Part shown: positions 29,396 through 52,897 of the stretch, one piece after another
How the letters are laid out: each line of letters starts with the position of its first letter
Position numbering within the stretch: the first letter of the stretch is position 1
Source of the DNA: Pseudomonas sp. MPC6
Lineage (GTDB): Bacteria; Pseudomonadota; Gammaproteobacteria; Pseudomonadales; Pseudomonadaceae
Assembly: GCF_006094435.1 (NCBI RefSeq)
Contig: NZ_CP034783.1
Span: 4,491,001-4,555,000 of the forward strand
Reading direction: 5' to 3'
DNA: 64,000 bases
Notes under the pieces: generated by a model
The model's input: the letters and a program-made list of their open reading frames with translations, nothing else
Database searches by the model: none
What the model was told of the DNA's origin: nothing
Program-made: the position numbers and the translations under genes

Positions 29396-29415
29396 GCGTT
29401 TCATATCTGAAACGC
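29396..29415. promoter_or_regulatory. Candidate IclR operator
   Basis: GCGTTTCA TATC TGAAACGC is a perfect palindrome (8-bp arms) 135 bases before the importer gene; a half site AATCTGAAAT follows at 29423. IclR proteins often bind GTTTC-like palindromes, and an IclR gene is encoded within the operon (34475). Confidence 0.55.
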
Positions 29416-29490
29416 TCAAAATAATCTGAAATCTCCTTAAACATCTAATAACAAAGGAGTTTTTGACAAAAAACAAAACGTCCACAGCTC

Positions 29491-29506
29491 TGGCATTGTT
29501 CATGCA
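29491..29506 (+). promoter_or_regulatory. Sigma-54-like promoter of the catabolic operon
   Basis: TGGCATTGTTCATGCA has GG and GC separated by ten bases, as sigma-54 requires, and agrees well with TGGCAC-N5-TTGC. A similar element precedes the porin gene (45191). No sigma-54 activator gene is in the window, so this is a prediction. Confidence 0.45.
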
Positions 29507-29510
29507 CTAA

Positions 29511-29533
29511 ACGGCGTATCACCTATAAAACAG
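29511..29533 (+). promoter_or_regulatory. Box shared with the porin upstream region
   Basis: Twenty of 23 positions match 45233-45255, including the runs CGTATCACCTA and AAACAG. It lies just downstream of the sigma-54-like element and 18 bases before the ATG. It may be a regulator site or an mRNA element shared by importer and porin. Confidence 0.5.
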
Positions 29534-29550
29534 ACCAGAGACCCTTCCCA

Positions 29551-30402
29551 ATGGCTGTGAACGAGATGTACGCCGTCGCCCCGCAATGGAATAAGCCCGC
29601 TCCCAAGGACAATCCGGAGCCCACCGAAATTGAATTCCGCAATGTCGGCAAATGCTTCCCGGCCAAGGGAAAGTCCGAAGCGCCGTTTGCCATTCGCGAG
29701 GTGAACTTCAAGATCCGCCGCGGTGAAGTGGTGTCGATCATCGGCCCTTCCGGGTGTGGCAAGAGCACCATCCTGAACATGGGTTCCGGGTTGTATCGCC
29801 CTACCGAAGGCGAAGTCTTCGTCGGCGGCGAAGCCGTGACCGGGCCGGTCCGCCAGGTGGCGTTCATGCTGCAAAAAGACCTGCTGATGCCGTGGCGCAG
29901 TATTCGCCGCAACGTCGAGCTGGGCCTGGAAATCCAGGGTGTGCCGGCCGCCAAGCGTCAGGCGGTGGCCAAAGATCTGCTCGATCGCTGCCACCTGCAA
30001 GGTTTTGCCGACCACTACCCCTTCCAGCTGTCGGGGGGCATGCGCCAGCGTGCTGCGCTGGCCCGCACCCTGGCCATCGACCCGCAGGTGCTGTTCCTCG
30101 ACGAACCATTTTCGGCCCTGGATGCGCAGACCAAGATGATCCTGCAGCAGGACATGGCGCGGATGCTGTTCGATGAAAAGAAAACCGCGCTGTTCATCAC
30201 CCATGACCTGATCGAAGCCATCGCCATGTCCGACCGCTTGCTGGTCATGAGCGCCCGCCCCGGCACCATCATCGAAGAAATCAGCGTCGACCTGCCGTTT
30301 CGCGACAACCCGCTGGAGCGCCGCAAGCTGCCGGAGATCGGCCCGCTGGCCGGACGCCTGATGGAACTGCTGAAAGTCGGCGAAGACACCGAACTGCATT
30401 GA
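29551..30402 (+). CDS. ABC importer ATP-binding protein (SsuB/TauB/NrtD type)
   Basis: 283 residues. Walker A is GPSGCGKST, the Q-loop lies in FMLQKDLLMPW, the signature is LSGGMRQR, Walker B is VLFLDEPF and the H-loop LFITHD. The order and the length match ATPases of nitrate/sulfonate/taurine-type importers. It is first in a 17-gene plus-strand operon and is followed by a binding protein (39-base gap) and a permease. There is no strong Shine-Dalgarno before ATG 29551, which is odd for a lead gene; the shared box occupies the presumed leader. Confidence 0.93.
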   Translation: MAVNEMYAVAPQWNKPAPKDNPEPTEIEFRNVGKCFPAKGKSEAPFAIREVNFKIRRGEVVSIIGPSGCGKSTILNMGSGLYRPTEGEVFVGGEAVTGPVRQVAFMLQKDLLMPWRSIRRNVELGLEIQGVPAAKRQAVAKDLLDRCHLQGFADHYPFQLSGGMRQRAALARTLAIDPQVLFLDEPFSALDAQTKMILQQDMARMLFDEKKTALFITHDLIEAIAMSDRLLVMSARPGTIIEEISVDLPFRDNPLERRKLPEIGPLAGRLMELLKVGEDTELH

Positions 30403-30441
30403 TCAACGCCCTTGTGGCCATCAACCTTTTCAGGAGTACTC

Positions 30442-31443
30442 ATGCTCAAGTCTCTGTTTCAACGCTTCAGCCAGGCCAGCGCCGTCGCGCTCGGCCTGGG
30501 CCTGGCCTTCGCTGCCCAGGCGCAGTCGACCGACGTGACTTACCTGTTGCCGGCGCCGCCGAACCTGCCGGCGTTCGCGCCGTGGATCATTGCGCAGCAA
30601 AAGGGTTACTACGCCGCCCAGAACCTGAACATGAAGTTCATCGCGGCCAAGGGCGGTGTGGACGTGGCAAAGCAGATCGGTGCGGGTAACGCGATGCTCG
30701 GTGGCGCCCTCGGTGATACGCCCATCGTGGTACGGGCCAACGGCATTCCGGTGCGCAACGTCGCGGTGCTGGGCGCCGGCGGCGTCACCATGATTGCGAC
30801 CAATGCGGCGCAGAACATCAATTCGATCACCGACCTCAAAGACAAGACGGTGACCGTGATGTCCTACTCCGACACCACCTACTACGCCTTGCTCGCTTCC
30901 CTGCGTAAAGCCGGCCTGAGCAAGAACGATGTGAACATCCAGGCCGCCGGGCCCGCCGGTGTCTGGCAATTGTTCTCGGCGGACAAAGCCGTGGCAATGG
31001 CCGGCGTGCCGGACTGGGTGATCAACGCCGAGGAAGCCGGGGTGAAGATCAAGCTGATCCCGCAAGCGCAGATCTTCGACAGCATGGCTCAGTCGATCCT
31101 CGCCTCCGACGATGCCATCAAGCATCACCCGGACATTGTTCGCGGCACGGTCCAGGCAACCCTGCACGGAATGCGCGACATCATTGAAGACCCCCGCGCG
31201 GCCGCCGTGACCTTTGCCAAGGCTGTTCCCGCTTATGCCGGCAAGGAAGATTCGCTGGAGAAAATCTTCAAGCTCTACGTCGAGCACGTCTATGCCAACC
31301 AGACCGTACCGGGCCGAATCGATCCGGTGCGCCTGGAAGCGGTCCGCCAGTTCTATGTCAGCGAAGGCATCGTCACCCAGGAGCCGAAGCTCGACGACCT
31401 GTACACCAACCAGTTCATCGACACCCAAACCGCCGCGCAATGA
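30442..31443 (+). CDS. ABC importer periplasmic substrate-binding protein (NMT1/SsuA type)
   Basis: 333 residues from ATG 30442 with CAGGAG upstream. Signal peptide MLKSLFQRFSQASAVALGLGLAFAAQAQ (cleavage near AQA). The mature start VTYLLPAPPNLPAFAPWIIAQQKGYYAAQNLNMKFIAAKGGVDVAKQIGAGNAMLGGALGDTPIVVRANGI is characteristic of NMT1/THI5-like and SsuA binding proteins. It also carries LKDKTVTVMSYSDTTYYALLASLRKAGL, the second-lobe opening of the family. It binds the imported compound in the periplasm; relatives take aliphatic sulfonates, thiamine precursors or aromatic acids, so specificity is open. Confidence 0.93.
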   Translation: MLKSLFQRFSQASAVALGLGLAFAAQAQSTDVTYLLPAPPNLPAFAPWIIAQQKGYYAAQNLNMKFIAAKGGVDVAKQIGAGNAMLGGALGDTPIVVRANGIPVRNVAVLGAGGVTMIATNAAQNINSITDLKDKTVTVMSYSDTTYYALLASLRKAGLSKNDVNIQAAGPAGVWQLFSADKAVAMAGVPDWVINAEEAGVKIKLIPQAQIFDSMAQSILASDDAIKHHPDIVRGTVQATLHGMRDIIEDPRAAAVTFAKAVPAYAGKEDSLEKIFKLYVEHVYANQTVPGRIDPVRLEAVRQFYVSEGIVTQEPKLDDLYTNQFIDTQTAAQ

Positions 31444-31471
31444 CGGTCAGTGACAACAAGGTAACGACACG

Positions 31472-32248
31472 ATGAAAAACCTCAATAACTCCATGCTCGG
31501 CAGCGTCGCCCTGCTGATCCTGTTCCTGGTGCTCTGGCAGTGGGGCCCGGGACTGCTCGGCATGCCCGAATTCGTCATGCCGCAACTGAGCCGGGTGGCC
31601 CAGGAAAGCGTGGTGATGTGGCAGACCGGCGGCCTGTTGCAGCACACCTTGATCACCGCGTTCGAGATCATCGTCGGCTTCGGCCTGGGCGCCCTGCTCG
31701 GCGTGGCCATCGGCGTGTCGCTGGGCCTGTCGCCCGCCGCAGAAGCCATGCTCTCGCCGTACATCCTGGCGCTGCAGATCGCGCCGAAAGTCGCCTTCGC
31801 CCCGCTGTTCGTGATGTGGCTGGGCTACACCATCTACCCGAAGATCCTGATCGCGATCCTGATCGTGTTCTTCCCGGTGATGATCAACGTGCTGTCGGCG
31901 ATTCGCACCGTGGACCCGGACATGATCAACCTCGTGCGGACCATGAACGCCAGCCGCTGGCAGATCTTCCGCCTGGTGGAATTTCCATCGGCCATGGCCG
32001 CGCTGTTCTCCGGCTTGCGCATTGCCTCGACCCTGGCCGTGATCGGCGTCACCGTCGGTGAACTGGTCGGCGGCAACCAGGGCCTGGGCTTCCTGCTGGT
32101 GGATGCCGAAGGCCAGGGCAATACCGCGGGCGTGTTCGTCGCCATCGTCATGCTCACGCTGATCGGTGTGCTCGCTTACGGCGCGGTGGTCTGGGCCGAG
32201 AAACGCATCCTGCACTACATGCCCAAAGCCATGCTGAGTACTCAATGA
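31472..32248 (+). CDS. ABC importer permease
   Basis: 258 residues with six predicted membrane helices (SVALLILFLVLWQWGPGLLG, TLITAFEIIVGFGLGALLGVAIGVSLG, ILALQIAPKVAFAPLFVMWLGYTIYPKILIAILIVFFPVMIN, and others). The cytoplasmic coupling motif around VRTMNASRWQIFRLVEFPSAMAALFSGLRIASTLAVIGVTVGE corresponds to the EAA loop of BPD-type permeases. It completes the importer with the ATPase and the binding protein. GTAACGACACG gives a weak ribosome site. It overlaps the following SDR start by 4 bases (ATGA). Confidence 0.93.
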   Translation: MKNLNNSMLGSVALLILFLVLWQWGPGLLGMPEFVMPQLSRVAQESVVMWQTGGLLQHTLITAFEIIVGFGLGALLGVAIGVSLGLSPAAEAMLSPYILALQIAPKVAFAPLFVMWLGYTIYPKILIAILIVFFPVMINVLSAIRTVDPDMINLVRTMNASRWQIFRLVEFPSAMAALFSGLRIASTLAVIGVTVGELVGGNQGLGFLLVDAEGQGNTAGVFVAIVMLTLIGVLAYGAVVWAEKRILHYMPKAMLSTQ

Positions 32249-33012
32249 TGACGACCCTCACTCGTTTGCTCGAAGGCCGTCGCGTGCTGGTCACCGGGGG
32301 CGCCCGCGGCCTGGGTTACGCCTTCGCCCAGGCCATCGGCCGCGCCGGTGCCCGGGTAGTGATCGCCGACATTCTCGCCGAGCGCGTCCAGCAATCGGCC
32401 GCCGAACTGGTCGCTGAAGGCCTGAGCGTTTATGGCGTGACCGTGGATTTGGCGCAACCGGATTCGATCGAGGCCTGCATCGCCGAAACCAGCCGTTTGC
32501 TCGGTGGGCTGGACGGCCTGGTCAACAACGCGTCGATCACCAATTCCGGCGGCAAGACCTGCGAAGAGCTGAGCCTGGATACCTGGGACCAGGTGATGCA
32601 GGTCAATGTGCGCGGCACCTGGCTGATGACCAAAGCCTGCCTGCCGGCCCTGCGCGCCAGTGGCCGTGGCGCGATCGTCAACCTGGCGTCCGACACCCCG
32701 CTGTGGGGCGCGCCGAACCTGTTGGCCTATGTCGCCAGCAAGGGCGCGATCATCGCCATGACCCGTAGCCTGGCCCGCGAGCTGGGTGGCGACAACATCA
32801 CGGTCAATGCCATCGCGCCTGGCCTGGTGCTGGTCGAAGCCACCGCCTACGTGCCCGAAGCGCGTCACCGCTTGTACAACGACCAGCGGGCGATTCAGCG
32901 CCCACAACTTCCCGAAGACGTCAGCGGCGCCGTGCTGTTCGCGCTGTCCGACCTCGCCCGTTTCATCACTGGACAAACCCTGCCGGTCAACGGCGGGTTC
33001 GTCATGCCTTGA
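32245..33012 (+). CDS. Short-chain dehydrogenase/reductase (SDR 1 of the operon)
   Basis: 255 residues. Motifs are TGGARGLG (cofactor loop), the acidic VIADI, VNNAS (variant of NNAG), the Ser in LASDTPLWG, YVASK (catalytic Tyr and Lys) and a C-terminal GQTLPVNGGFVMP. It is NAD-dependent by the Asp after strand two. The start overlaps the permease stop, so it belongs to the same transcript. A dihydrodiol or alcohol dehydrogenase step is plausible given the Rieske oxygenase further on, but this is inference. Confidence 0.9.
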   Translation: MMTTLTRLLEGRRVLVTGGARGLGYAFAQAIGRAGARVVIADILAERVQQSAAELVAEGLSVYGVTVDLAQPDSIEACIAETSRLLGGLDGLVNNASITNSGGKTCEELSLDTWDQVMQVNVRGTWLMTKACLPALRASGRGAIVNLASDTPLWGAPNLLAYVASKGAIIAMTRSLARELGGDNITVNAIAPGLVLVEATAYVPEARHRLYNDQRAIQRPQLPEDVSGAVLFALSDLARFITGQTLPVNGGFVMP

Positions 33013-33025
33013 TCAGGAGACTGCC

Positions 33026-33589
33026 ATGACCGATCTATCCGCCAACTTGAATGCCCACGCTGCTTCAGAGCAGGCCACCGCGAAAAGCTGGGAACAACCC
33101 GCCGGCAGCGACCTTGCAAGCTGGATGCAGACCCGCATCGCCCGCTACGAGACGCGCAAGTACGACTGGAACGCGCTGAAGTTCCAGGCCGACTACGACC
33201 CGAAATTCCGCCGCGCGCAGATGCGCTACATCGGCACCGGCGGCACTGGCGTGAGCACCGACATGAACACCATCCCGTCGGAGAACTTCACCTTCTCCAC
33301 CATGGTGATTCCGGCTGGTCACGAAGGCCCGCCGCACCTGCACACCGACGTGGAAGAAGTGTTCTTCGTGCTGCGCGGCAAACTCAAGGTGGTGATCGAA
33401 AAGGACGGCGAGCGTTTCGAAACCATCCTCACCGACCGCGACGTGATTTCCGTGCCGCCCGGCGTGTACCGCGAAGAGATCAACATCGGCGATGAAGACG
33501 CGTTGATGTGCGTGATGCTCGGCGCGAAAAAACCCGTCACCCCGACCTACCCGCCAGAACACCCCCTGGCCTCGATCAAGCGCGGATAA
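33026..33589 (+). CDS. Cupin-domain protein
   Basis: 187 residues from ATG 33026 (CAGGAGAC upstream). The cupin core is FTFSTMVIPAGHEGPPHLHTDVEEVFFVLRGKLKVVIEKDGE. Its metal motif is G(X)5HXH(X)3,4E(X)6G: GPPHLH, then E in DVEEVFF and the glycine in LRGKL. The second motif (DVISVPPGVYREEINIG) lacks the usual His. A single-domain cupin could be a dioxygenase, decarboxylase or isomerase of a ring-derived intermediate; which one cannot be decided. N-terminal sequence ASWMQTRIARYETRKYDWNALKFQADYD precedes the barrel. Confidence 0.85.
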   Translation: MTDLSANLNAHAASEQATAKSWEQPAGSDLASWMQTRIARYETRKYDWNALKFQADYDPKFRRAQMRYIGTGGTGVSTDMNTIPSENFTFSTMVIPAGHEGPPHLHTDVEEVFFVLRGKLKVVIEKDGERFETILTDRDVISVPPGVYREEINIGDEDALMCVMLGAKKPVTPTYPPEHPLASIKRG

Positions 33590-33593
33590 GCCC

Positions 33594-34478
33594 ATGTTGC
33601 ACGCCATCGATACCCTCGCCCCGCCGCTCACGGCCGACCTCCAGGCCCAGTTGGCGCTGCACTTCCCCCAGCGCACGCTGGAGCTCGCAGGCGCCCGCCA
33701 GGCCGTGCGCGAATGCGGGGCCGGGCCGGCCATCGTGTTGCTGCACGGGATCGGCTCGGGCTCGGCGTCGTGGCTGCAAGTGGCGCAGGAGTTGGGCCAA
33801 AGTGCCCGGGTGATCGCCTGGGACGCGCCCGGCTATGGCGACTCTACGCCGCTCAGGGCCTTGGCCCCGGACGCTTCGGACTACGCCGAACGGCTGCTGC
33901 AGATGCTCGACGCCCTGGACATCCAGCGCTGTGTGCTGGTGGGTCACTCCCTGGGGGCGATCACCGCCACCGCGTTCGCCAGCGGCGTGCACCAGCAGCG
34001 CATCAGCCGCCTGGTCTTGATCAGCCCGGCCCAGGGCTACGGCCATCCGTCGCGCGCCTTGCAACGCCAGGACGTGCGCAACAAACGCCTGCGCGCCCTG
34101 GAGCAACTGGGCATCCCGGGCATGGCCGAGCAACGCAGTGCCTACATGCTCTCGCCCCACGCCAGCCCCAAGGCACAGGCCTGGGTGCAGTGGAACATGG
34201 CCCGGCTCAATCCCGAGGGCTATCGCCAGGCCATCGAGCTGCTGTGCGGCGATGACCTGCTGCGCCACGCGCCGCTGTCGATGCCGTGCGAAGTGCATTG
34301 CGGCGAAGCCGACGGCATCACCGCGCCCGAAAGCTGCCTGACCCTGGCCAAGGCCCTGGGCGGCACGTTCAACCTTATCGCCGATGCCGGGCACGCCAGC
34401 CCCATCGAACAACCTTGTGTGGTGGCGGGCCGTCTGGCCTGTGCCATCAAAGAATCCCTGACAGGTGCATCGCTATGA
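33594..34478 (+). CDS. Alpha/beta hydrolase, possible ring-cleavage-product hydrolase
   Basis: 294 residues. Oxyanion region LLHGIGSGSASW, nucleophile elbow GHSLG (Ser), Asp near CGEADGITAPESC and His in DAGHASPIEQP complete the triad. The lid region is ordinary for BphD/MhpC-like C-C hydrolases or enol-lactone hydrolases. Only 4 bases separate it from the cupin stop, and its own stop overlaps the IclR start (ATGA). With an extradiol-type enzyme in the same operon, a role in hydrolysing a ring-opened product is reasonable but not proven. Confidence 0.88.
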   Translation: MLHAIDTLAPPLTADLQAQLALHFPQRTLELAGARQAVRECGAGPAIVLLHGIGSGSASWLQVAQELGQSARVIAWDAPGYGDSTPLRALAPDASDYAERLLQMLDALDIQRCVLVGHSLGAITATAFASGVHQQRISRLVLISPAQGYGHPSRALQRQDVRNKRLRALEQLGIPGMAEQRSAYMLSPHASPKAQAWVQWNMARLNPEGYRQAIELLCGDDLLRHAPLSMPCEVHCGEADGITAPESCLTLAKALGGTFNLIADAGHASPIEQPCVVAGRLACAIKESLTGASL

Positions 34479-35311
34479 ACGATTCAGATCTGCTGAAGGA
34501 CGCTCAGGACAAATACATCGTGCCGGGCCTGGAGCGCGGCCTGCTGCTGCTCTGCGAGTTCAGCCGGCGCAACCGCACGCTGACCGCGCCGGAACTGGCC
34601 CGGCGCCTGGCGCTGCCGCGCTCGACGATTTTCCGCTTGCTGACGACCCTGGAAACCATGGGCTTCGTCACCCGCAGCGGCAATGAATATCGCCTGGGCA
34701 TGTCGGTGCTGCGCCTGGGCTTCGAGTACCTGGCCTCGCTGGAGCTGACCGAACTCGGCCAGCCGCTGCTGGCCCGCCTGTGCGACCGCCTCAACTACCC
34801 GAGCAACCTGGTGGTGCGCGACGGCCGTTCGATCGTCTACGTGGCCAAGGTCTCGCCGCCGTCGGTGTTCTCCAGCGCGGTGAATGTCGGCACCCGCCTG
34901 CCCGCCCACGCCACGGTCCTGGGGCGCATCCTGCTCGAAGACCTGTCGCTGGCCGAGCTGCGCGAGCTGTACCCGGAAGATCACCTGGAGCAGTTCTCGC
35001 CCTGCACGCCGAAAACCGTGATGGAGCTGTTCGACATGGTCCAGGCCGACCGTCAGCGCGGGTTTGTCAGCGGTGAAGGCTTCTTCGAGTCAGCGATTTC
35101 GACCGTTGCCGCACCGGTGCGCGATCAATCCGGGCAGATCGTCGCGGCCCTGGGCGTGACCATTCCGACCACGCAAATCGCCCACGTCAACTTCAACGAA
35201 TTGCTCCTGCAGGTGCGTCGCAGCGCCGACGAGCTGTCGCGGTTGCTCGACTACAACAGCGCGGCCGGCCACGACGGCCAGCAGCGCGTGACCGCCCTGA
35301 TGAGGGATTGA
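34475..35311 (+). CDS. IclR-family transcriptional regulator
   Basis: 278 residues. Winged HTH at about 16-75 (VPGLERGLLLLCEFSRRNRTLTAPELARRLALPRSTIFRLLTTLETMGFVTRSGNEYRLG) and an IclR effector domain (VVRDGRSIVYVAKVSPPSVFSSAVNVGTRLPAHATVLGRILLEDLSLAELRELYP..., GFVSGEGFFESAISTVAAPVRDQSGQIVAALGVTIP). IclR proteins commonly control aromatic catabolism and bind the pathway compound. It is encoded inside the operon, coupled to the hydrolase; the palindrome at 29396 is its likely operator. Confidence 0.93.
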   Translation: MNDSDLLKDAQDKYIVPGLERGLLLLCEFSRRNRTLTAPELARRLALPRSTIFRLLTTLETMGFVTRSGNEYRLGMSVLRLGFEYLASLELTELGQPLLARLCDRLNYPSNLVVRDGRSIVYVAKVSPPSVFSSAVNVGTRLPAHATVLGRILLEDLSLAELRELYPEDHLEQFSPCTPKTVMELFDMVQADRQRGFVSGEGFFESAISTVAAPVRDQSGQIVAALGVTIPTTQIAHVNFNELLLQVRRSADELSRLLDYNSAAGHDGQQRVTALMRD

Positions 35312-35312
35312 G

Positions 35313-36110
35313 ATGAGCCTCTATCAACTGCAAGACAGCACGGCCATCGTGACCGGCGGCTCCTCCGGGATTGGCCTGGCCTGTGTCGAGTTGCTGCTCG
35401 AAGCCGGCGCCGCCGTGGCCTTCTGCGGTCGCGACGAAGACCGCCTGCGTAGCGTCGAAGCCGACCTGCGCCAACGCTTTCCCCACGGGCGGTTGCTGGC
35501 CCGGGTGTGCAACGTGCTCGACGCGGATTCGGTCAACGCCTTTGCCGCCGCCAGCCTGGCCGCACTGGGCCCGGCCAGCGTGCTGATCAACAACGCCGGA
35601 CAAGGTCGGGTCTCGACCTTCGCCGACACCACCGACAGCGCCTGGACCGAAGAGCTGAACCTGAAATTCTTCTCGGTGATCAACCCGGTTCGCGCCTTCA
35701 AGGCGCAGCTGCAAGCTCAACCGAACGCGGCCATCGTCTGCGTCAATTCGCTGCTGGCCAGCCAGCCGGAGCCGCACATGGTCGCCACCTCGGCCGCCCG
35801 CGCCGGGGTGATGAACCTGGTGCGCTCGATGGCCACCGAATTCGCCGTCGATGGCATTCGGGTCAACGGCATCCTGATCGGCCTGGTCGAGTCCGGGCAG
35901 TGGCGCCGGCGTTTCGAAGCCCGCGAAGAGCGGGAGCTGGACTGGAGCCAATGGACCGCCCGCCTGGCTCGACAAAAACACATTCCCTTGGGGCGCCTGG
36001 GCCTGCCGATTGAAGCGGCCCGCGCGATCCTGTTTCTGGCCTCGCCTCTGTCGGCTTACACCACAGGCAGCCATATCGATGTTTCCGGAGGCCTGTCCCG
36101 CCATGCGTAA
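35313..36110 (+). CDS. Short-chain dehydrogenase/reductase (SDR 2 of the operon)
   Basis: 265 residues starting one base after the IclR stop (TGAGATG). TGGSSGIG opens the nucleotide fold; FCGRDE suggests NADP. INNAGQGR, the Ser of NSLLASQPEPH and a C-terminal DVSGGLSRHA are present. The usual catalytic YxxxK is replaced: the sequence at that place reads HMVATSAARAGVMNLV, with no Tyr and no Lys. If the reading is right, this SDR has lost the standard catalytic pair and may not be a classical dehydrogenase. The ThDP enzyme start lies inside its last codons (8-base overlap). Confidence 0.85.
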   Translation: MSLYQLQDSTAIVTGGSSGIGLACVELLLEAGAAVAFCGRDEDRLRSVEADLRQRFPHGRLLARVCNVLDADSVNAFAAASLAALGPASVLINNAGQGRVSTFADTTDSAWTEELNLKFFSVINPVRAFKAQLQAQPNAAIVCVNSLLASQPEPHMVATSAARAGVMNLVRSMATEFAVDGIRVNGILIGLVESGQWRRRFEAREERELDWSQWTARLARQKHIPLGRLGLPIEAARAILFLASPLSAYTTGSHIDVSGGLSRHA

Positions 36111-37785: not shown

Positions 37786-37795
37786 GGACTTCGTC

Positions 37796-38599: not shown

Positions 38600-38609
38600 G
38601 GGACAGTCG

Positions 38610-41068: not shown

Positions 41069-41081
41069 GCAGGAGTTGCCC

Positions 41082-42224: not shown

Positions 42225-42238
42225 ACCGGGACACGAAC

Positions 42239-42412: not shown

Positions 42413-42413
42413 G

Positions 42414-42641
42414 ATGAGCAATACCGAACCCTACCTGCAGCCCCATCAGGCTCGCAAACGGCCCAACACCCAGTTCGAAGAGTTGCTCGGCGACTCCATC
42501 GAACGCGCGTTCGGCCATGGCGTGACCGAGCTGCCCGACCTGCTCGCGCACCTGAACCTGGCCGGGCCGCCCTGCCCGCTGACCACCGGCGAGTGGACTG
42601 CGGATGCCTATAAAACCCTGATGGCTCGGCTGGGCGAATGA
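42414..42641 (+). CDS. Recombinase-like helix-turn-helix domain protein
   Basis: 75 residues. ATG 42414 is preferred over the in-frame ATG 42399 because GGAGGT lies 7 bases upstream. NTQFEELLGDSIERAFGHGVTELPDLLAHLNLAGPPCPLTTGEWTADAYKTLMARLGE resembles the recombinase-type HTH small proteins I recall next to Rieske oxygenase genes. The name comes from fold similarity to the recombinase C-terminus; whether it binds DNA is unknown. Confidence 0.65.
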   Translation: MSNTEPYLQPHQARKRPNTQFEELLGDSIERAFGHGVTELPDLLAHLNLAGPPCPLTTGEWTADAYKTLMARLGE

Positions 42642-42662
42642 CCCGCCGGAGGACAATAAGAA

Positions 42663-44659: not shown

Positions 44660-44687
44660 CCGCTGTTCTATTTCATCCATTGAACAG

Positions 44688-44712
44688 GCCGACACTTTTG
44701 TCGGCCTTTTTT
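44688..44712 (+). terminator. Strong intrinsic terminator of the catabolic operon
   Basis: GCCGACA, CTTT, TGTCGGC and seven-base T-rich tail CTTTTTT. It lies 29 bases after the reductase stop. Confidence 0.9.
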
Positions 44713-44766
44713 ATGCGAGTCCACTGGTTTGGACGCCACCTCATTATCCAGCATGGGCACGGTCCC

Positions 44767-44862
44767 CCTGTAGGAGCTGGCTTGCCAGCGAAAGCGGCGG
44801 CACATTCAATATCAATGGCGACTGACACACCGCATTCGCTGGCAAGCCAGCTCCTACAGGGG
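44767..44862. repeat. REP pair (inverted) 1
   Basis: CCTGTAGGAGCTGGCTTGCC and its inverse around 44835-44862 face each other across about 35 bases. It is a Pseudomonas REP doublet in the 720-base gap between the reductase and the porin. Confidence 0.9.
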
Positions 44863-44898
44863 ATCAGTGCCATGTTCGGATTGAAGGCTGGCGCAAGA

Positions 44899-45003
44899 CC
44901 TGTAGGAGCCAGCTTGCTGGCGATGATCGTTAACGATAACGCGTGAGATCTGGTTAAACGCGGCGCACTTGAGTCCATCGCCAGCAAGCTGGCTCCTACA
45001 GGG
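44899..45003. repeat. REP pair (inverted) 2
   Basis: CCTGTAGGAGCCAGCTTGCT and its inverse. The variant core GCTTGCTGGCGATG differs from pair 1, so they belong to different subclasses. Confidence 0.9.
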
Positions 45004-45190
45004 TATTGCGTCATCTGTGTTTCCTCGTGAAAGGCCTTTTTGTAGGCGAGTCGAGTAAGTGCGCACACATAACGTGCAGTTTCGTTACTCCTTGAAGCCC
45101 TCGTTTCACGGGCAATACAAGGAAATGCGTTTCCCATATAAACAATTGTTTTTACTGGATTTTATTCGGCAAAGAAGCACCGCCCAACAG

Positions 45191-45206
45191 TGGCATGGTT
45201 TCTGCT
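45191..45206 (+). promoter_or_regulatory. Sigma-54-like promoter before the porin
   Basis: TGGCATGGTTTCTGCT has GG-N10-GC as in the element at 29491 and lies about 190 bases before the porin ATG. No activator gene was found in the window. Confidence 0.4.
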
Positions 45207-45232: not shown

Positions 45233-45255
45233 ACGCCGTATCACCTACGAAACAG
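45233..45255 (+). promoter_or_regulatory. Box shared with the importer upstream region
   Basis: Contains CGTATCACCTA and AAACAG as at 29511-29533 (20 of 23 positions). It lies 27 bases after the sigma-54-like element, versus 5 bases at the importer. Confidence 0.5.
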
Positions 45256-45379: not shown

Positions 45380-46609
45380 ATGAAGAATTACGTGATATGT
45401 CTCGGGCTGATGATGACCAGCTGCGTCAGTTTCGCCGGCGAACCCGGCCCTGCCGCGCCCGTGACCTCGACCACCGGTAAAAAGCCGTTCCCGCATATCG
45501 CCTGGCGCAGCGACGATGGCCAGAGCAGCCTGGACATCGGCGGCGCCTTGCGCACCAACTACCGCGACGAGCATTGGGACACCACCGAAAACAATGGCCG
45601 CTTGCTGTTCGACACCTTCCGCATCGACGTGCAGGCGACTTACCAGAACTTGTTCAGCGATGTCGGCTACTGGTTTCAGGACGACGGCAAACGCTCCATC
45701 GATCGCGGCTTCGTCGGCTACCGTTTCAACAGCAATTCGAACCTGCAACTGGGCGCGCCGTTCAAGCCGTTCGGCCTGGAACCCTACCCGCAATTCGGCT
45801 GGAGTTATCACCTGCCGTTCTTCATGGGCTATGGCGTCAGCGCCGGTTCGGGTTTGAAGTACAGCTACAAGGACAAGGACTGGGATCTGCAACTGGGGTA
45901 TTTCCCGCGCATGATGCCGTCGGACATTCGCTACTCGCCGGAAGTCGGCCGCTACGCCGACCTCAAGGACAACGCGATCCCCTTCACCCAGTCGCGCCAG
46001 GACAACGAGAAGCACAACCAGATCAATGCCCGCGTCGCGCGGACCTTTGTCAACGACGGCTGGAAAGCCGAGGTCGGGGCCTCGGTGGCCGCGGCCCAGC
46101 TGTACAACGCCACCACCCGGGACGACGGTGATTACTGGGCCGCTGGCATTCACGCCGTGATCAATGCCGGCCAATGGACCGTCAGCACCCAGGGCATCCG
46201 GTACGAGTACGACCCGAAAAATCCCGCCGGCGTCAGCAACGACTCGGTGTTGATGGGCGGCAACGGCCTGACGCCCGCGTACCTGATTGCCTCCAAGGCA
46301 ACCATTGCTTCGCTGAACATCGGCTATGACATTGCGACGCCGAAGCTGGGGCAGTTGAAGAAGATCAAGCTGTACAACGACTACAGCCGCATGATGAAAG
46401 ACCAGAGCGGTTGGGACGACTCGCAGATGTACACCGTCGGCGCGCAATTCCTGGCGATGCCGATCATGGCGTGGGTCGACCTGACCTGGGCGAAAAACGC
46501 CAACCCCTACGGCGGCGCGGAAAACGGTAGCGGCTTCACTAACACAAGCTCGATCGGCAGCAACGAGTGGTACTACCGGACCAACATCAACATCGGCTAC
46601 TACTTCTGA
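45380..46609 (+). CDS. Outer-membrane porin
   Basis: 409 residues from ATG 45380 (GGGGAAGTGAGC upstream); the open frame extends far upstream but the signal peptide begins here (MKNYVICLGLMMTSCVSFAG). The mature protein is a run of amphipathic beta strands (LDIGGALRTNYRDEHW, NLFSDVGYWFQDDG, DLQLGYFPRMM...) and ends TNINIGYYF with the terminal aromatic required for barrel assembly. It is a general or substrate-selective porin, not clearly an OprD protein. The shared upstream box links it to the importer and pathway operon. It is convergent with the MFS gene. Confidence 0.85.
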   Translation: MKNYVICLGLMMTSCVSFAGEPGPAAPVTSTTGKKPFPHIAWRSDDGQSSLDIGGALRTNYRDEHWDTTENNGRLLFDTFRIDVQATYQNLFSDVGYWFQDDGKRSIDRGFVGYRFNSNSNLQLGAPFKPFGLEPYPQFGWSYHLPFFMGYGVSAGSGLKYSYKDKDWDLQLGYFPRMMPSDIRYSPEVGRYADLKDNAIPFTQSRQDNEKHNQINARVARTFVNDGWKAEVGASVAAAQLYNATTRDDGDYWAAGIHAVINAGQWTVSTQGIRYEYDPKNPAGVSNDSVLMGGNGLTPAYLIASKATIASLNIGYDIATPKLGQLKKIKLYNDYSRMMKDQSGWDDSQMYTVGAQFLAMPIMAWVDLTWAKNANPYGGAENGSGFTNTSSIGSNEWYYRTNINIGYYF

Positions 46610-46644: not shown

Positions 46645-46652
46645 CGCCAGGC

Positions 46653-48329
46653 TCAGGTGTGATGGATTTCCCGATCCTTGGTTTCCGGCAGGAAGAAGAT
46701 ACCCAGGATGGCCGTCATCACCGCGATGATGATCGGGTACCACAGCCCGTAGTAGATATCACCCGTGGCTGCGACCATCGCGAACGCTACCGTCGGCAGG
46801 AAGCCGCCGAACCAGCCGTTGCCGATGTGGTACGGCAGCGACATCGAGGTGTAGCGGATGCGCGCCGGGAACAGTTCCACCAGCCAGGCGGCGATCGGGC
46901 CGTAGACCATGGTCACGTAGATCACCAGGATGGTCAGGAGCAGCAGCACCATTGGGTAGTTGGTCTTGGCCGGGTCGGCCTTCTCGGGGTAGCCGGCTTC
47001 CTTGAGCGAAGCACCGAGGGTCGCGACGAACGCATCGTTTTTGGCCTTGAAATCGGCGGCCGGCATGCCGGTGCCCTCGAAGCTCTGGATGACTTTTTCG
47101 CCGATGCGCACCTGCGCCACGGTGCCAGGTTCGGCCTTCACGTTCTGATAGGGGATGGCCCGCTTGGCCAGCACGGTCTTGGCCAGGTCGCAGGAGCTGG
47201 TGAATTTGGCCTTGCCCACCGGGTCGAACTGGAACGAGCACTGGTCGGGATCGGCGATCACCGTGACCGGGTTCTTCGCCTGCGCGGCGAACACGTCGGG
47301 GTTACCGTACTGGGTCAACCCATGGAAGATCGGGAAGTAGGTCAGCGCCGCGAGGATGCAGCCGGCCATGATGATGCCCTTGCGGCCGATGCGGTCGGAC
47401 AGGCTGCCGAAGATGACGAAGAACGGCGTACCGATCAGCAGCGAACCGGCGATCAGCAGGTTGGCGGTCTGCGGGTCGATCTTCAGCGTCTGCAGCAGGA
47501 AGAACAGCGCGTAGAACTGCCCGGTGTACCAGACCACGGCCTGGCCGGCAGTGCCGCCGAGCAGCGCCATGATGACGATCTTGAGGTTGTCCCAGCGGGC
47601 GAAGGATTCGGTCAGCGGCGCCTTGGAAGCCTTGCCTTCAGCCTTCATTTTCAGGAACACCGGCGACTCGCTGAGTTGCAGGCGGATGTACACCGAGACG
47701 ATCAGCAGCAGGATCGACAGCAGGAACGGAATCCGCCAGCCCCAGGCCTCGAAGGCTTCGGTGCCGAGGATGGTGCGACAGGCGAGGATCACCAGCAGCG
47801 ACAGGAACAGGCCGAGGGTCGCGGTGGTTTGAATCCACGAAGTGAAGTAGCCGCGCTTGCCCTTGGGCGCATGTTCGGCGACGTAGGTCGCCGCACCGCC
47901 GTACTCACCGCCCAGGGCCAGGCCTTGCAACAGGCGCAGGGTGATCAGGATGATCGGCGCTGCGACGCCGATGGTCGCATAGCCGGGCAGGAAGCCGACG
48001 ATGGCCGTGGAGATACCCATGATCACGATGGTGATGAGGAAGGTGTGCTTGCGCCCGATCATGTCCCCCAGGCGGCCGAACACGATGGCGCCGAAGGGGC
48101 GTACGGCGAAGCCCGCGGCGAACGCGAGGAGCGCGAAGATGAACGAGGTTGTCTCGTTGACCCCGGCGAAGAAATGCTTGGCGATGATCGCGGCAAGCGA
48201 GCCGTAAAGGTAAAAGTCGTACCACTCGAACACGGTGCCCAGGGACGAGGCAAAGATGACTTTGCGCTCCTCCTTGGTAAGCCCGTGGTGGGGGGCGCTG
48301 CGCGCCGTTGTATTGTCGATTGCGGGCAT
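46653..48329 (-). CDS. MFS transporter, metabolite:H+ symporter (MHS/ProP-ShiA) type
   Basis: 558 residues with GGAGAAG before the ATG. SLGTVFEWYDFYLYGSLAAIIAKHFF is the classic MHS opening, followed by GRLGDMIGRKHTF (the loop 2-3 motif) and RLLQGLALGGEYGGAATYVAEHAP. Twelve helices fit. Between helices 9 and 10 there is an extra extracytoplasmic stretch of roughly 110 residues (about 345-455), including DPDQCSFQF...SSCDLAKTVLAKRAIP and AKNDAFVATLGASLKEAG, absent from most MHS proteins. Relatives carry shikimate, proline/betaine or dicarboxylates and aromatic acids. It is convergent with the porin and may import the pathway substrate. Confidence 0.92.
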   Translation of the reverse strand: MPAIDNTTARSAPHHGLTKEERKVIFASSLGTVFEWYDFYLYGSLAAIIAKHFFAGVNETTSFIFALLAFAAGFAVRPFGAIVFGRLGDMIGRKHTFLITIVIMGISTAIVGFLPGYATIGVAAPIILITLRLLQGLALGGEYGGAATYVAEHAPKGKRGYFTSWIQTTATLGLFLSLLVILACRTILGTEAFEAWGWRIPFLLSILLLIVSVYIRLQLSESPVFLKMKAEGKASKAPLTESFARWDNLKIVIMALLGGTAGQAVVWYTGQFYALFFLLQTLKIDPQTANLLIAGSLLIGTPFFVIFGSLSDRIGRKGIIMAGCILAALTYFPIFHGLTQYGNPDVFAAQAKNPVTVIADPDQCSFQFDPVGKAKFTSSCDLAKTVLAKRAIPYQNVKAEPGTVAQVRIGEKVIQSFEGTGMPAADFKAKNDAFVATLGASLKEAGYPEKADPAKTNYPMVLLLLTILVIYVTMVYGPIAAWLVELFPARIRYTSMSLPYHIGNGWFGGFLPTVAFAMVAATGDIYYGLWYPIIIAVMTAILGIFFLPETKDREIHHT

Positions 48330-48766: not shown

Positions 48767-50482
48767 ATGATCGAGGTCACCGAAGTCTCCATTGCCGAAC
48801 TGCGTGCGGCGCTCGAATCCGGCCGGACCACCGCGGTCGAGCTGGTCCAGGCCTATCTGGCCCGGGTCGATGCCTATGACGGCCCCGCCACCCCCACCGC
48901 CCTCAACGCGATGGTGGTGCGCAACCCCGATGCACTCGAGGAGGCCCGGGCGTCCGATGCCCGGCGGGCCAAAGGCGAGACCCTGGGTCCGCTCGATGGC
49001 ATCCCCTATACGGCCAAGGACAGTTATCTGGTCAAGGGGCTGACCGCCGCCTCGGGCAGTCCGGCATTTGCCAACCTGGTCGCTTATCGCGATGCGTTCA
49101 CCATTGAACGGCTGCGCGGCGCGGGTGCGATCTGCCTGGGCAAGACCAATATGCCGCCCATGGCCAACGGCGGCATGCAGCGCGGGGTCTATGGTCGCGC
49201 GGAAAGCCCGTACAACGCCGACTATCTCACCGCCCCGTTCGCCTCGGGCTCATCGAATGGCGCCGGGACTGCCACCGCCGCCAGTTTCGCCGCCTTCGGC
49301 CTGGCTGAAGAGACCTGGTCGAGCGGACGCGGGCCTGCGTCGAACAATGGCCTGTGTGCCTACACGCCGTCGCGCGGGGTGATCTCGGTGCGCGGCAACT
49401 GGCCGTTGACCCCGACCATGGACGTGGTGGTGCCGTTTGCCCGCACCATGACCGACCTGCTCGAGGTGCTCGACGTGGTGGTCGCGGAGGATCCCGACAC
49501 CCGCGGCGATCTGTGGCGGATGCAACCCTGGGTGCCGATTCCGAGTGTCGCCTCGGTGCGCCCGGCCTCCTATGCATCGCTTGCGGCGAATAGCGTTGCG
49601 CTGGCCGGAAAACGCTTTGGCGTGCCGCGCATGTACATCAACGCCGATCCCGAAGCCGGTACCGCGGATGCGCCGGGTATCGGCGGGCCGACCGGGCAGC
49701 GGATCAACACCCGGGCCTCGGTGATCGGTCTCTGGGAAGAGGCGCGCCAGGCACTCGAGGCCGCAGGCGCCGAAGTGCTCGAGGTCGATTTCCCGATGGT
49801 CTCCAATTGCGAGGGTGATCGTCCGGGCGCACCGACGGTGTTTACCCGGGGGCTGGTGTCCAAGGAGTTCCTGCATCATGAGTTGTGGGACCTGACGGCC
49901 TGGGCGTTCGATGATTTTCTGCAAGCCAACGGCGATCCCGACCTGAATCGCCTGGTGGATGTCGACGGGCCGCTGATTTTCCCCCACGACCCGGGGACCT
50001 TGCCCAACCGCGAAGGCGACCTGGTTGCGGGCATGGACGAGTATGTGCGGATGGCCGAGCGCGGCATTACCCCCTGGGACCAGATCTCCACCGTGCCGGA
50101 TGGACTGCGCGGGCTGGAACAGACCCGTCGAATCGACCTGGAGGACTGGATGGATCGGCTGGGGCTCGATGCGGTGATCTTCCCGACGGTAGCCGACGTC
50201 GCGCCGGCGAATGCCGACGTCGACCCGCAGTCTGCGGATATCGCCTGGAGTAACGGCATCTGGGTCGCCAACGGCAACCTCGCCATCCGCCACCTGGGTG
50301 TGCCCACGGTCACGGTGCCGATGGGGATCATGCCCGACATCGGCATGCCGGTCGGGCTGACGTTTGCCGGTCGTGCGTATGACGATTCGACGTTGTTGCG
50401 TTTGGCTGCGGCGTTTGAGTCGACGGGAACCAAGCGCATGATTCCGCCTCGGACGCCGCCATTGGCCCGTGGCGAAAAATAG
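48767..50482 (+). CDS. Amidase-signature-family hydrolase
   Basis: 571 residues. The N-terminal helix IAELRAALESGRTTAVELVQAYLARVDAYDG and the catalytic Lys in PYTAKDSYLVKGL are typical. The signature region is FASGSSNGAGTATAASFAAFGLAEETWSSGRGPASNNGLCAYTPSRG, providing the Ser-Ser pair. FAGRAYDDSTLLRLAAAFE closes it. It cleaves an amide or nitrile-derived amide; the substrate is unknown. It is divergent from the MFS gene. If the pathway compound carries an amide, this could be the entry step (inference). The ribosome site is weak. Confidence 0.9.
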   Translation: MIEVTEVSIAELRAALESGRTTAVELVQAYLARVDAYDGPATPTALNAMVVRNPDALEEARASDARRAKGETLGPLDGIPYTAKDSYLVKGLTAASGSPAFANLVAYRDAFTIERLRGAGAICLGKTNMPPMANGGMQRGVYGRAESPYNADYLTAPFASGSSNGAGTATAASFAAFGLAEETWSSGRGPASNNGLCAYTPSRGVISVRGNWPLTPTMDVVVPFARTMTDLLEVLDVVVAEDPDTRGDLWRMQPWVPIPSVASVRPASYASLAANSVALAGKRFGVPRMYINADPEAGTADAPGIGGPTGQRINTRASVIGLWEEARQALEAAGAEVLEVDFPMVSNCEGDRPGAPTVFTRGLVSKEFLHHELWDLTAWAFDDFLQANGDPDLNRLVDVDGPLIFPHDPGTLPNREGDLVAGMDEYVRMAERGITPWDQISTVPDGLRGLEQTRRIDLEDWMDRLGLDAVIFPTVADVAPANADVDPQSADIAWSNGIWVANGNLAIRHLGVPTVTVPMGIMPDIGMPVGLTFAGRAYDDSTLLRLAAAFESTGTKRMIPPRTPPLARGEK

Positions 50483-50520
50483 CAGCGGTGTGTTGGCTTG
50501 CCCCTGTCCAGGGCATTACA

Positions 50521-50627
50521 CCGATCACCTGTAGGAGCTGGCTTGCCAGCGAAGGCGTCCGTTCAGCGAAAAATTAGTCGACTGACCCACCGCTTTCGCT
50601 GGCAAGCCAGCTCCTACAGGTGATCGG
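50521..50627. repeat. REP doublet with 33-bp perfect arms
   Basis: 50521-50553 is the exact inverse of 50595-50627 (begins CCGATCACCTGTAGGAG). The symmetry extends past the usual REP into the flanking CCGATCA. A degenerate REP follows to 50720. Confidence 0.9.
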
Positions 50628-50731
50628 TATGCTTCACACATGCCAGGGTCGACCGACCCACCGCTTTCGCTGCGGTGCGGCGATCCGACAAGCCTGCTCC
50701 TACCGTGTGATCTGTCCGCTCCCTCCCGTTT

Positions 50732-52897
50732 TCAAGCCGCCGCCACCCGCTCACTGCAATTACTCACCTCAAATTGCCCCACCAGTTTTTGCAGTTTGTT
50801 GGCATTGAGCCTCACGGTTTCGGCGCTGCTCTGCAGCACTACCACCGTCTGGCGCATCTCGGTGGAAGACTGGTCGACCTGCCGGATCGTCTTGCCATAA
50901 TCGAGGCTGTGCTTGTTGAGCTGCTGAATGATCGCAAACATGCTTTCCACGGCTTGATGCAACTGCACGTTTTCCGAGGAGGCATCTTCGGCCAGGCGCA
51001 GGCTGTTATCGACGTCCTTGACCCCCGCCTCCATGAAGCTCACGGCTTTTTGCGTTTCGCCCTGCAGGCCTTCGACCATCTGCCGGATATCGTCGGCCGC
51101 CCGTGACGTGCGTGAGGCCAGGCTGCGTACCTCATCGGCCACCACCGCAAAGCCGCGCCCATGCTCGCCCGCGCGCGCCGCCTCGATGGCGGCATTCAAG
51201 GCCAGCAGATTGGTTTGGTTGGTGATGTCGCTGATCAGGCTGGTGATGTTGCCGATTTGCGTCATCCGGCTGTCGAGCAACTGCACGCTTGAAGATGAAC
51301 GCTCGACCACATCGCGAATCGACTGGGTGCCGGCCTGCACCGCGAGAAACTGTTCACGGGCACGGGTGACGACTTCGTCCATCACCTGCTTCATCTGCTC
51401 GGCGCTGGCCGAGGCTTGCTGGATCTCGCCCAACTGGTCTTCCACGATAATCATCATGTGACGCACCGCTTCGGCCACCTCGGCGGAGGTGATGCCGGCT
51501 TCCTGGCTGCGGCCGAGCATCATCTGATTGGTGGTGCCGACGTTGCGACTGGCCTTCACCACTTGCCCGACCACCGAGTCAAGGTGGTCGATGAAACTGT
51601 TGATCCAGCGCCCCATGTCACCGGTCTCATCGTTGGCCATGGTCGCGGGGTCCAGGCGCTGACGCAGGTTGCCCTCGCCCTCGGCGATGGTCCTGATCAC
51701 ACTCGTCATCCCGTCCAGCCGGGCCGCCAGTCGCTTGGGCCCCAGCTGACTGAACAGCAGCGTGGCGCCGACCATGCTCACCACTTCGACGGCATCGATC
51801 AGGCCCTGGGCCAGGCCACTGTAGTGCTGGACCAGGTAATTGCAGGCAAACAGGCCGGTCATGGTCGCCAGATAAGGCTTCATCAGGCCATGGCTGAGCG
51901 AGCGTCGGCGGTACACCTCCTCCAGGTCGGCCTCACACATCATGCCCCAGCGGTCAGGGGAGCCTGGCAACTGGAAGGTGACGCCCTTGCCGACCACGGG
52001 CACGTGCCGGTAATCCGAATAACCGGGATAGGTCACGAACAGGTTGGAGCCCTTGCGGATGGTCTCGCGTACTCCCGGGTGCAGTTGCTGGGTCGCCGGG
52101 TCGGTAAAGCGCAGTTCCAGCTCGGTGTGGCGCTGGATCTGCACGGTCTTCCACGGCGTGTGTACGCCGCTCTTGAGGTTTTCACCGTGGGTAAAGGTGC
52201 CGTCCTCGAAACGTGAGCGCGACAAGGCGGTCCCCGGTTGGATGGCGGGATCGAATCGTGACTGCGCCATGAACAGGTAGTTGTCGCCGGACTCGGCAAA
52301 AATGTGCCCGGCCTCGCGCTGGATCAGGTCGCCCAGCACATCGTTGGGCACGCGACCACAGAGACAGCCAACGACCTTTCCCTCGGCCTTCAGCGGCTGA
52401 TAGAACATCAAGGTGACTTCATCGTGGAAGCGTGAAGACGATGGACCGATGGGCAAGGTCAGTGGATCGCAGTAAGGCCCCTGGAGAAACGGCGCCTTCA
52501 AACCTTCGGCCAATGCGCGAGTGTGCTCGACCCGGGTATTGACCCGTCGGCTCCAAGTCGAGGCGATGACGCGGCCGGCAGTATCAACCACAAACAACTC
52601 GGAAAAATCTTCCGCCTGGCGCAGCTTGTCCATCAACGGAGCGCTGTCGAGACAGGCGAAATCACGGCCGAGATGGTCTGCCAGTTCAGCCAGGTGTTCC
52701 CACTGCTCGCGGGTCCAGTTGTGCAGCAACTGCACGCGGGTTTCAGCGATGGCTTCGAAGGTTTGTTCGATCACCGGGTACGCCGACCGATTGAGCCGGC
52801 ACGACCAGCCCATGGCGATTTTTCCGGTTTTGCCGAACCAGGGTAACCAGCTTTTCTCGCTTGGGGATAACGCCATGGCATTACTTGATAGCGACAT
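50732..52897 (-). CDS. Methyl-accepting chemotaxis protein with cytosolic-looking N-terminus
   Basis: 721 residues. The C-terminal signalling hairpin tip is visible: [41 protein letters not shown]-like and methylation helices precede it ([13 protein letters not shown]... and [12 protein letters not shown]). The N-terminal 350 residues hold a PDC/dCache-like sensor ([18 protein letters not shown]..., [32 protein letters not shown]). There is no membrane helix before the sensor; the only hydrophobic pair is at about 345-395 ([31 protein letters not shown]). The sensor may therefore sit in the cytosol. It probably steers the cell to the pathway compound. Confidence 0.9.

Follow-up and report, generated by a model that had tools for sequence, protein, structure and literature searches.

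A conserved, probably sigma-54/IclR-controlled regulon in Pseudomonas sp. MPC6 with a proposed role in the use of a nitrogen-bearing aromatic acid, possibly kynurenate

Results

We analyzed a 17-gene catabolic operon and a nearby porin-like gene in a 64,000-nucleotide stretch of Pseudomonas sp. MPC6 DNA (contig NZ_CP034783.1, positions 4,491,001 to 4,555,000; the whole stretch is called the window, and coordinates refer to it). The operon and the porin gene very probably form a regulon, under the control of sigma-54 and an IclR-family protein, that serves the use of some nitrogen-bearing aromatic acid. Kynurenate, as a source of both nitrogen and carbon, is our tentative candidate for that acid, with a chance not far short of even. 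The regulon is recurring and self-contained; its enzymes are of known kinds, and no characterised match to their combination was found. Literature searches by enzyme names returned nothing on this gene combination, searches by PAO1 locus numbers returned incidental mentions only, and no exact match of gene order to a characterised pathway was found in the literature searched; an initial annotation of the window likewise knew of no characterised pathway with this set. No published substrate was found for this tightly packed unit, which is common to Pseudomonas, Burkholderiales, Klebsiella, Acinetobacter, and alphaproteobacteria. The gene content, its conservation, the active-site residues, and the promoter and operator patterns described below are direct observations.

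Gene content of the operon

Seventeen open reading frames (ORFs) lie on the plus strand from 29551 to 44659, with intergenic gaps of -8 to +39 bp, in line with the initial annotation of seventeen genes, almost all of which overlap or nearly touch. The same annotation extended the unit to 52897; however, it ends at 44659 and is followed by an intrinsic-terminator-like hairpin with a 9-bp stem and a T run (44686-44707, plus strand). The protein families named at that stage are confirmed by family matches.

The first three genes encode an ATP-binding cassette (ABC) importer, consisting of an ATPase (29551-30402), an NMT1/THI5-like substrate-binding protein (30442-31443), and a permease (31472-32248), all assigned by family matches. 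The importer scores below the curated SsuABC/TauABC cut-offs (taurine ATPase, 198 versus 357 bits; SsuA family, 78.5 versus 163.5; SsuC permease, 95.6 versus 347). These genes are followed by a short-chain dehydrogenase (SDR1; 32245-33012, family match), proposed as a cis-dihydrodiol dehydrogenase, a cupin (33026-33589, PF07883), for which isomerase and ring-cleaving dioxygenase are candidate roles, an alpha/beta hydrolase (33594-34478, PF00561), and an IclR-family regulator (34475-35311, family match). The hydrolase, a candidate for C-C or amide hydrolysis of the ring remainder, weakly matches PcaD, HsaD, BphD, MhpC-type enzymes, and the pyridoxine-pathway hydrolase 3kxp.

Three proteins pass curated NCBIfam cut-offs: a second short-chain dehydrogenase (SDR2; 35313-36110, NF005468, 446 versus 266 bits), a thiamine diphosphate (ThDP) enzyme (36103-37785, NF005470, 871 versus 495 bits), proposed as a 2-oxo acid decarboxylase, and an L-aspartate dehydrogenase (37796-38599, NF009827, 464.5 versus 226 bits). 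A close relative of SDR2 is solved as 3lf1 (E 5e-133), a structure named by accession only, 'Short Chain Oxidoreductase Q9HYA2'; we take Q9HYA2 to be PA3507 of P. aeruginosa. When aligned to 1j5p and 2dc1, the aspartate dehydrogenase keeps the conserved histidine, presumably catalytic, and the PKN.NVAATL and NPKTS motifs. The aldehyde dehydrogenase (38610-40106, PF00171) scores below the cut-offs of all 25 families among the matches listed.

The next gene encodes a two-domain VOC protein (40103-41068). Its residues H154, H213, and E264, which we take to be the metal ligands (2-His-1-Glu), and H197, H245, and Y254, presumably second-shell residues, align with those of homoprotocatechuate 2,3-dioxygenase (1f1x). 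Because both sets of residues align, the VOC protein should be a type I extradiol dioxygenase. It is far below the cut-offs of the named equivalogs HpaD, catechol 2,3-dioxygenase, and BphC, the best score, obtained on a longer ORF containing the VOC protein, being 68 versus 321 bits for HpaD. Relatives with 72-73% identity are encoded by Delftia acidovorans and Comamonas, which counts in favour of kynurenate; the quinoline branch is used by D. acidovorans.

A NicC-like FAD monooxygenase (41082-42224) has 6-hydroxynicotinate 3-monooxygenase as its closest solved relative (5eow, E 8e-83). It is followed by two small ORFs (42239-42412 and 42414-42641), a Rieske oxygenase alpha subunit (42663-43697, PF00355), and a VanB-like reductase with its 2Fe-2S domain at the C-terminus (43694-44659, family match). 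The Rieske protein has the Rieske and the mononuclear iron motif (CPH-X16-CPYH and D-X2-H-X4-H). Among its solved relatives, dicamba O-demethylase and 3-ketosteroid 9-alpha-hydroxylase score best, and carbazole and 2-oxoquinoline oxygenases score lower.

By domain (PF19112), the Rieske protein is VanA-like, as the initial description of a VanA/VanB-type pair has it. In Klebsiella, Acinetobacter, and Caballeronia records, however, the Rieske gene is accompanied by a distinct ferredoxin gene and by an oxidoreductase annotated either as ferredoxin reductase or as FAD-dependent, and the Klebsiella records have ferredoxin-reductase ORFs alongside the Rieske and ferredoxin genes. A Rieske protein with a separate ferredoxin and a reductase is the arrangement of ring dioxygenases.

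Promoters and operators

The sigma-54 consensus consists of GG at -24 and GC at -12, a fixed distance apart. A sigma-54-type promoter, TGGCATTGTTCATGCA, lies upstream of the operon (29491-29506), and another lies upstream of the porin gene (45191-45205), both on the plus strand. The pattern TGGC[AG]-N7-[TC]GC is present upstream of the operon in all 44 Pseudomonas loci compared (shuffled sequences: mean 1.04, largest 5) and before the porin gene in 40 of 43 (mean 1.42, largest 6). A match is also present in 12 of the 17 Herbaspirillum-type loci, where shuffled sequences gave 3 at most, and in 3 of 8 alphaproteobacterium-like loci, the last count being no more than the largest shuffle.

Each promoter is followed by the operator sequence CGTATCACCTAYRAAACAG. 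The 7.2-Mb genome contains exactly two perfect sites, one just downstream of the operon promoter (CGTATCACCTATAAAACAG, 29515-29533) and one before the porin gene (45237-45255, located by genome search), both on the plus strand; two further sites appear at 3 mismatches, where the control count is also 2. Of 44 other Pseudomonas loci, 33 have the operon operator with no more than 1 mismatch. The porin operator is only loosely kept, within 1 mismatch in 2 of 43 loci and within 3 in 21 of 43, while shuffled sequences never fall under 4. A palindrome, GTTTCATATCTGAAAC (29398-29413, plus strand), is unique in the genome at up to 1 mismatch and is a putative IclR site. Palindromes of a looser form precede 41 of 44 Pseudomonas loci and 15 of 17 Cupriavidus-type loci; the counts are 2 of 17 for the Herbaspirillum type and 2 of 4 for Klebsiella/Acinetobacter/Caballeronia. 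We infer that the GTTTCATATCTGAAAC-type palindromes and the operators are sites of the IclR-family regulator.

The porin-like outer-membrane protein (45380-46609, plus strand) has no Pfam or NCBIfam match, and the label therefore rests on the look of its sequence. A homolog is encoded in 44 of 107 loci, and in the listed Pseudomonas loci it stands after the reductase gene. Its inclusion in the regulon is based on a sigma-54-type promoter of its own and on one of the only two perfect operators in the genome.

About 120 bp upstream of the operon promoter is an NtrC-like dyad, GCAC-N7-GTGC (29358-29372, plus strand), which by itself is suggestive only. Eight of 44 Pseudomonas loci contain the exact dyad, against a mean of 0.18 in shuffled sequences. 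NtrC-like sites are enriched but degenerate: at least 9 of 12 letters are matched in 28 of 44 operon loci (about 6.6 expected) and in 29 of 43 porin loci (about 8.2 expected). Since the operon has no activator gene, nitrogen control is likely.

Conservation across bacteria

In tblastn searches, 21 proteins of the window were compared with 93 and later 107 loci. Of the latter, 103 were picked by the ThDP gene and 4 by the VOC gene, so these two genes are present by selection; 99 loci form the full set, 8 having been dropped for short flanks. The named loci come from the best 80 of 571 relatives.

The same gene set is found in Pseudomonas, Cupriavidus, Ralstonia, Herbaspirillum, Noviherbaspirillum, Caballeronia, Klebsiella, Acinetobacter, and alphaproteobacterium-like relatives. 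A search for the same gene order in other genomes had been called for in the initial annotation; in 93 loci, all picked by the ThDP gene, blocks of the same genes flank that gene, with an order that varies in detail, indicating that the gene set is not due to chance. The hydrolase, SDR2, aspartate dehydrogenase, IclR regulator, and a VOC protein are each encoded in 99 of 99 full loci, and the aldehyde dehydrogenase in 98; in a Rhodobacter-like group the identity of the VOC protein falls to about 30%. The ThDP protein shares 98% identity with that of Pseudomonas fluorescens isolates PS833 and PS862 (among the best 80 of 571 relatives). The ThDP marker exceeds its cut-off in 15 of 398 genomes sampled across the phylum and in 19 of 249 within the genus; for the orders to which genomes G208 and G166 belong, the counts are 14 of 244 and 2 of 197, respectively. 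These low frequencies indicate that the unit is accessory and patchy.

SDR1 is absent from 5 of 99 full loci, the same 5 that have no Rieske gene, and 92 full loci have both. In the other two (L045 and L046), the fetched stretch begins inside SDR1; in a comparably placed Klebsiella locus, the Rieske gene is found immediately upstream. The joint loss of SDR1 and the Rieske gene agrees with the proposed pathway but is a single event on a ThDP tree and was not taken as strong evidence. The gene for the HTH_62 protein is present in 67 full loci, all of which have the Rieske gene.

Proposed pathway

Every reaction described here, like the substrate, is deduced from the protein families and their neighbourhood. 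The initial annotation proposed a nitrogen-bearing aromatic substrate, and this is the most likely class in view of the sigma-54-type promoter, the aspartate dehydrogenase of all 99 full loci, and the RidA-family protein (PF01042) encoded in 46 of 107 loci, which points to an imine or enamine.

Kynurenate degradation in Pseudomonas comprises ring dihydroxylation, diol dehydrogenation, 8,8a-extradiol cleavage, 2-oxo acid decarboxylation, and aldehyde oxidation (EC 1.14.99.2, 1.3.1.18, 1.13.11.10). The pathway was studied in Pseudomonas extracts around 1961, and its reactions run in the same order as that proposed for the gene classes here, including a nitrogen-bearing C4 unit. By homology, a single unit holds a ring dioxygenase, a diol dehydrogenase, an extradiol enzyme, a 2-oxo acid decarboxylase, and an aldehyde dehydrogenase. 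No paper assigning genes to kynurenate degradation was found in the literature searched. A 1961 title among the references of PMC11354673 bears out that kynurenic acid is degraded by Pseudomonas extracts, with formation of glutamate.

Whatever the substrate, the gene classes very probably provide for formation of a catechol, by dihydroxylation and rearomatisation or by flavin hydroxylation, followed by extradiol cleavage, ThDP-dependent decarboxylation of the 2-oxo acid formed, aldehyde oxidation, hydrolysis of the remainder with the nitrogen, and conversion of an iminosuccinate/aspartate unit by aspartate dehydrogenase, aided by RidA in some strains. In the proposed pathway for kynurenate, the porin and the NMT1-type ABC importer would bring the substrate in, and the Rieske oxygenase would make a cis-dihydrodiol on the benzene ring of kynurenate. 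SDR1 would rearomatise the diol to a catechol, 7,8-dihydroxykynurenate, which the VOC enzyme would cut next to the ring fusion; the product would be a hydroxylated picolinate that carries a 2-oxo-acid arm. The arm would be saturated by a reductase, for which SDR2 is a candidate; the ThDP enzyme would then decarboxylate it, and the aldehyde dehydrogenase would oxidise the resulting aldehyde. The hydrolase and the cupin would open the pyridine ring to yield a C5 acid and iminosuccinate. The ring nitrogen of kynurenate is bonded to the carboxylate-bearing carbon, and ring opening could therefore give an iminosuccinate unit. Aspartate dehydrogenase would turn iminosuccinate into aspartate; in strains that encode RidA, this protein would hydrolyse the imine. 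The NicC-like enzyme would be optional, providing a second entry for a hydroxylated analogue such as xanthurenate or helping in pyridine opening.

Several observations weigh against this pathway or against parts of the regulon. Two steps, the enone reduction and the opening of the pyridine ring, lack a unique enzyme assignment. The top solved relative of the Rieske protein, dicamba O-demethylase, is a monooxygenase. Tryptophan dioxygenase and kynureninase are encoded in 0 of 107 loci, and both are absent from the genome of strain MPC6; in 25 cluster-bearing genomes they are present in 18 and 19, respectively, away from the cluster except in G208. In rich medium, kynurenate builds up to 100 uM in a kynU mutant of P. 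aeruginosa (PMC4938989), although this species has an aspartate dehydrogenase that is 78% identical; nitrogen control could explain the build-up. As for the promoter, the pattern in the window alone is not rare (2 sites versus 1.1 expected), so that the claim rests on conservation, and the pattern is found in 0 of 17 Cupriavidus-type loci (500 bp before the Rieske gene) and in 0 of 4 Klebsiella/Acinetobacter/Caballeronia loci.

In G208, a tryptophan 2,3-dioxygenase-kynureninase pair lies 7-9 kb upstream of the cluster (L156:1661-3714); in G615, of the same genus, the distance is about 64 kb. Linkage to kynurenine genes, which would be supportive rather than defining for kynurenate degradation, was rejected as evidence, the G208 pair not being repeated in the other genomes checked.

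Alternative substrates and routes

Another nitrogen-bearing aromatic compound is a serious contender, although its chance is distinctly less than even. Candidates are another quinoline or N-heteroaromatic acid and a derivative of an aromatic amino acid; in the latter case the hydrolase would cut an extradiol product and directly release aspartate for deamination by aspartate dehydrogenase. This alternative draws on the same recurring genes; no gene of the cluster names kynurenate, and the weak matches of the hydrolase to BphD, HsaD, and MhpC-type enzymes are matches to C-C hydrolases. Moreover, five loci keep the core without the Rieske and SDR1 genes and with the flavin enzyme and a sulfatase, and therefore more than one entry compound is likely. 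However, no hydratase or aldolase gene was noticed in the cluster, where no model search was aimed at them, and RidA is harder to explain on this account.

The five loci (L048, L049, L050, L148, and L154), which also have no cupin gene, all have the sulfatase nearby, which suggests a sulfated phenolic entry compound. A MobA-like phenol hydroxylase was considered as a general substitute for the Rieske oxygenase and rejected, as it occurs in 1 of 107 loci only.

It is unlikely that the substrate is free of nitrogen and that aspartate dehydrogenase merely handles oxaloacetate from the pathway. Aspartate dehydrogenases also run from oxaloacetate to aspartate, and the solved relatives of the flavin enzyme include some, for instance the tropone and vanillate enzymes, that act on nitrogen-free rings. 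However, such a substrate leaves aside the RidA gene of 46 loci and the combination of a sigma-54-type promoter and NtrC-like sites with an operon that has no dedicated activator gene.

Still less probable is a Rieske/reductase pair that acts as a VanAB- or TsaMB-like demethylase or side-chain oxidase, the alcohol formed being oxidised by the short-chain dehydrogenases. The PF19112 (VanA_C) match and the ranking of dicamba O-demethylase as best solved relative agree with this role. Against it, the Rieske gene of Klebsiella, Acinetobacter, and Caballeronia has a distinct ferredoxin gene as its neighbour, and the extradiol-type enzyme still requires a catechol.

The linear route of the initial annotation, with an amidase and an obligatory flavin hydroxylation after the Rieske attack, is very improbable: the amidase adjoins the cluster here and in 2 of 6 relatives checked, but it is far from the cluster in the other 4 and has no operator, and the flavin enzyme is absent from 52 of 99 full loci, with no ortholog in 10 of 13 genomes.

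Returning to kynurenate, the regulon might be the genetic basis of its bacterial breakdown (and, with the flavin enzyme, of xanthurenate breakdown), its patchy presence in soil and host-associated bacteria controlling how long the signal persists; we regard this wider proposal as possible, at clearly less than an even chance. Kynurenate breakdown reactions have been known as activities since the 1960s. If kynurenate is indeed the substrate, genes would be assigned to several enzyme activities for which we found none, and one could test directly how bacteria remove kynurenic acid, a tryptophan metabolite that is active in the host. If kynurenate is the wrong substrate, the regulon nevertheless marks out a few assayable enzymes that serve a nitrogen-bearing aromatic acid.

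Accessory and lost genes

The flavin monooxygenase is encoded in 47 of 99 full loci, among them the 5 without a Rieske gene. Among 13 genomes that have no flavin gene in the locus, 3 have an ortholog elsewhere (67-73% identity) and 10 have no match above 40% identity, which contradicts an obligatory flavin step. A quick ThDP tree (101 rows; 7 of 108 left out) shows at least 18 changes of state for the flavin monooxygenase and at least 12 for RidA. Loss of the two as a module was rejected, because the raw association (p 8e-6) is gone on the tree (sign test, median p 1).

In Pseudomonas examples, the RidA-family gene lies between the Rieske and reductase genes; full copies inside relatives' clusters include L080:17708-18145 and L056:17718-18155. 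In the window, the Rieske/reductase junction is a scar in which the first seven bases of RidA, as they stand at its start in L056, are retained; the reductase gene starts at this scar. Two loci (L052 and L055) keep RidA tails of about 50 residues. A RidA ortholog was not found in the MPC6 genome.

The initial annotation listed two tiny proteins. One of them (42414-42641) is a conserved HTH_62 protein of 75 residues, counted from the ATG at 42414 (PF20552, E 2.6e-27). The other (42239-42412, 57 residues) is, by comparison with relatives, a remnant that retains the start and the C-terminal half of a conserved protein of about 105 residues after an internal deletion. Full-length copies are encoded at L149:18121-18453 and L072:16107-16424; 52 positions are invariant among 10 relatives, and there is no Pfam match. 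The predicted fold, ferredoxin-like with a mean pLDDT (predicted local distance difference test score) of 77, gave generic structure matches only and was discarded as a clue. The RidA scar and the truncated ORF indicate that the strain lost two accessory genes that many relatives keep.

Comparison with known systems

The P. aeruginosa locus PA3504-PA3514 shares with the operon the SDR2 relative Q9HYA2 (3lf1) and the aspartate dehydrogenase of 78% identity. According to PMC5623697, the ABC transporter PA3512-PA3514 sits within a locus of hypothetical proteins.

The nicotinate (nic) pathway has the NicC-like monooxygenase in common with the operon; the enzyme is accessory here, whereas its step is obligatory in the pathway of NicC. 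Rieske, VOC, and ThDP enzymes and aspartate dehydrogenase are not known to have a place in the nic pathway. The Rut uracil pathway resembles the cluster in its flavin monooxygenase, RidA-type deaminase, and alpha/beta hydrolase, and also in nitrogen control, which is likely for the cluster. It is not known to include a Rieske, VOC, or ThDP enzyme, and its flavin enzyme is obligatory, unlike that of the cluster.

The lumichrome (lum) pathway of Nocardioides likewise applies a Rieske dioxygenase, an extradiol dioxygenase, and a ThDP enzyme to an N-heteroaromatic compound (PMC12746152). Unlike the operon, it has a Rieske alpha/beta pair, a two-gene ThDP heterocycle decarboxylase, and a xanthine oxidase-type step. 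The word 'aspartate' is absent from the text of PMC12746152.

Neighbouring genes and sequence context

The sensor, porin, and transporters that the initial annotation placed in the operon fare differently. The porin belongs to the same regulon but has its own promoter and operator. The major facilitator superfamily (MFS) transporter (46653-48329, minus strand) and the chemoreceptor (50732-52897, minus strand) have no operator site and were rejected as members of the unit. The amidase (48767-50482), once read as a pathway member, was rejected as well, because it has no operator site and is unlinked in 4 of 6 relatives.

The GC content is 64% in the operon versus 55% in the 29.5 kb to its left, with a change near 30 kb. 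A DDE transposase gene (DUF772 and DDE domains; 26990-28468, minus strand) lies about 1 kb before the operon. Farther left in the low-GC part (4696-9094), a C4 antisense RNA, which we take to be a phage-type RNA, and group II intron pieces are found on both strands. Rfam and tRNA scans gave no match inside the operon. REP-like inverted repeats (CTGTAGGAGC...GCTCCTACAG) occupy approximately 44760-45010, between the terminator and the porin gene. A second ThDP enzyme, which we guess may be a glyoxylate carboligase, is encoded at 54058-55881, beside a LysR-type ORF of the opposite strand.

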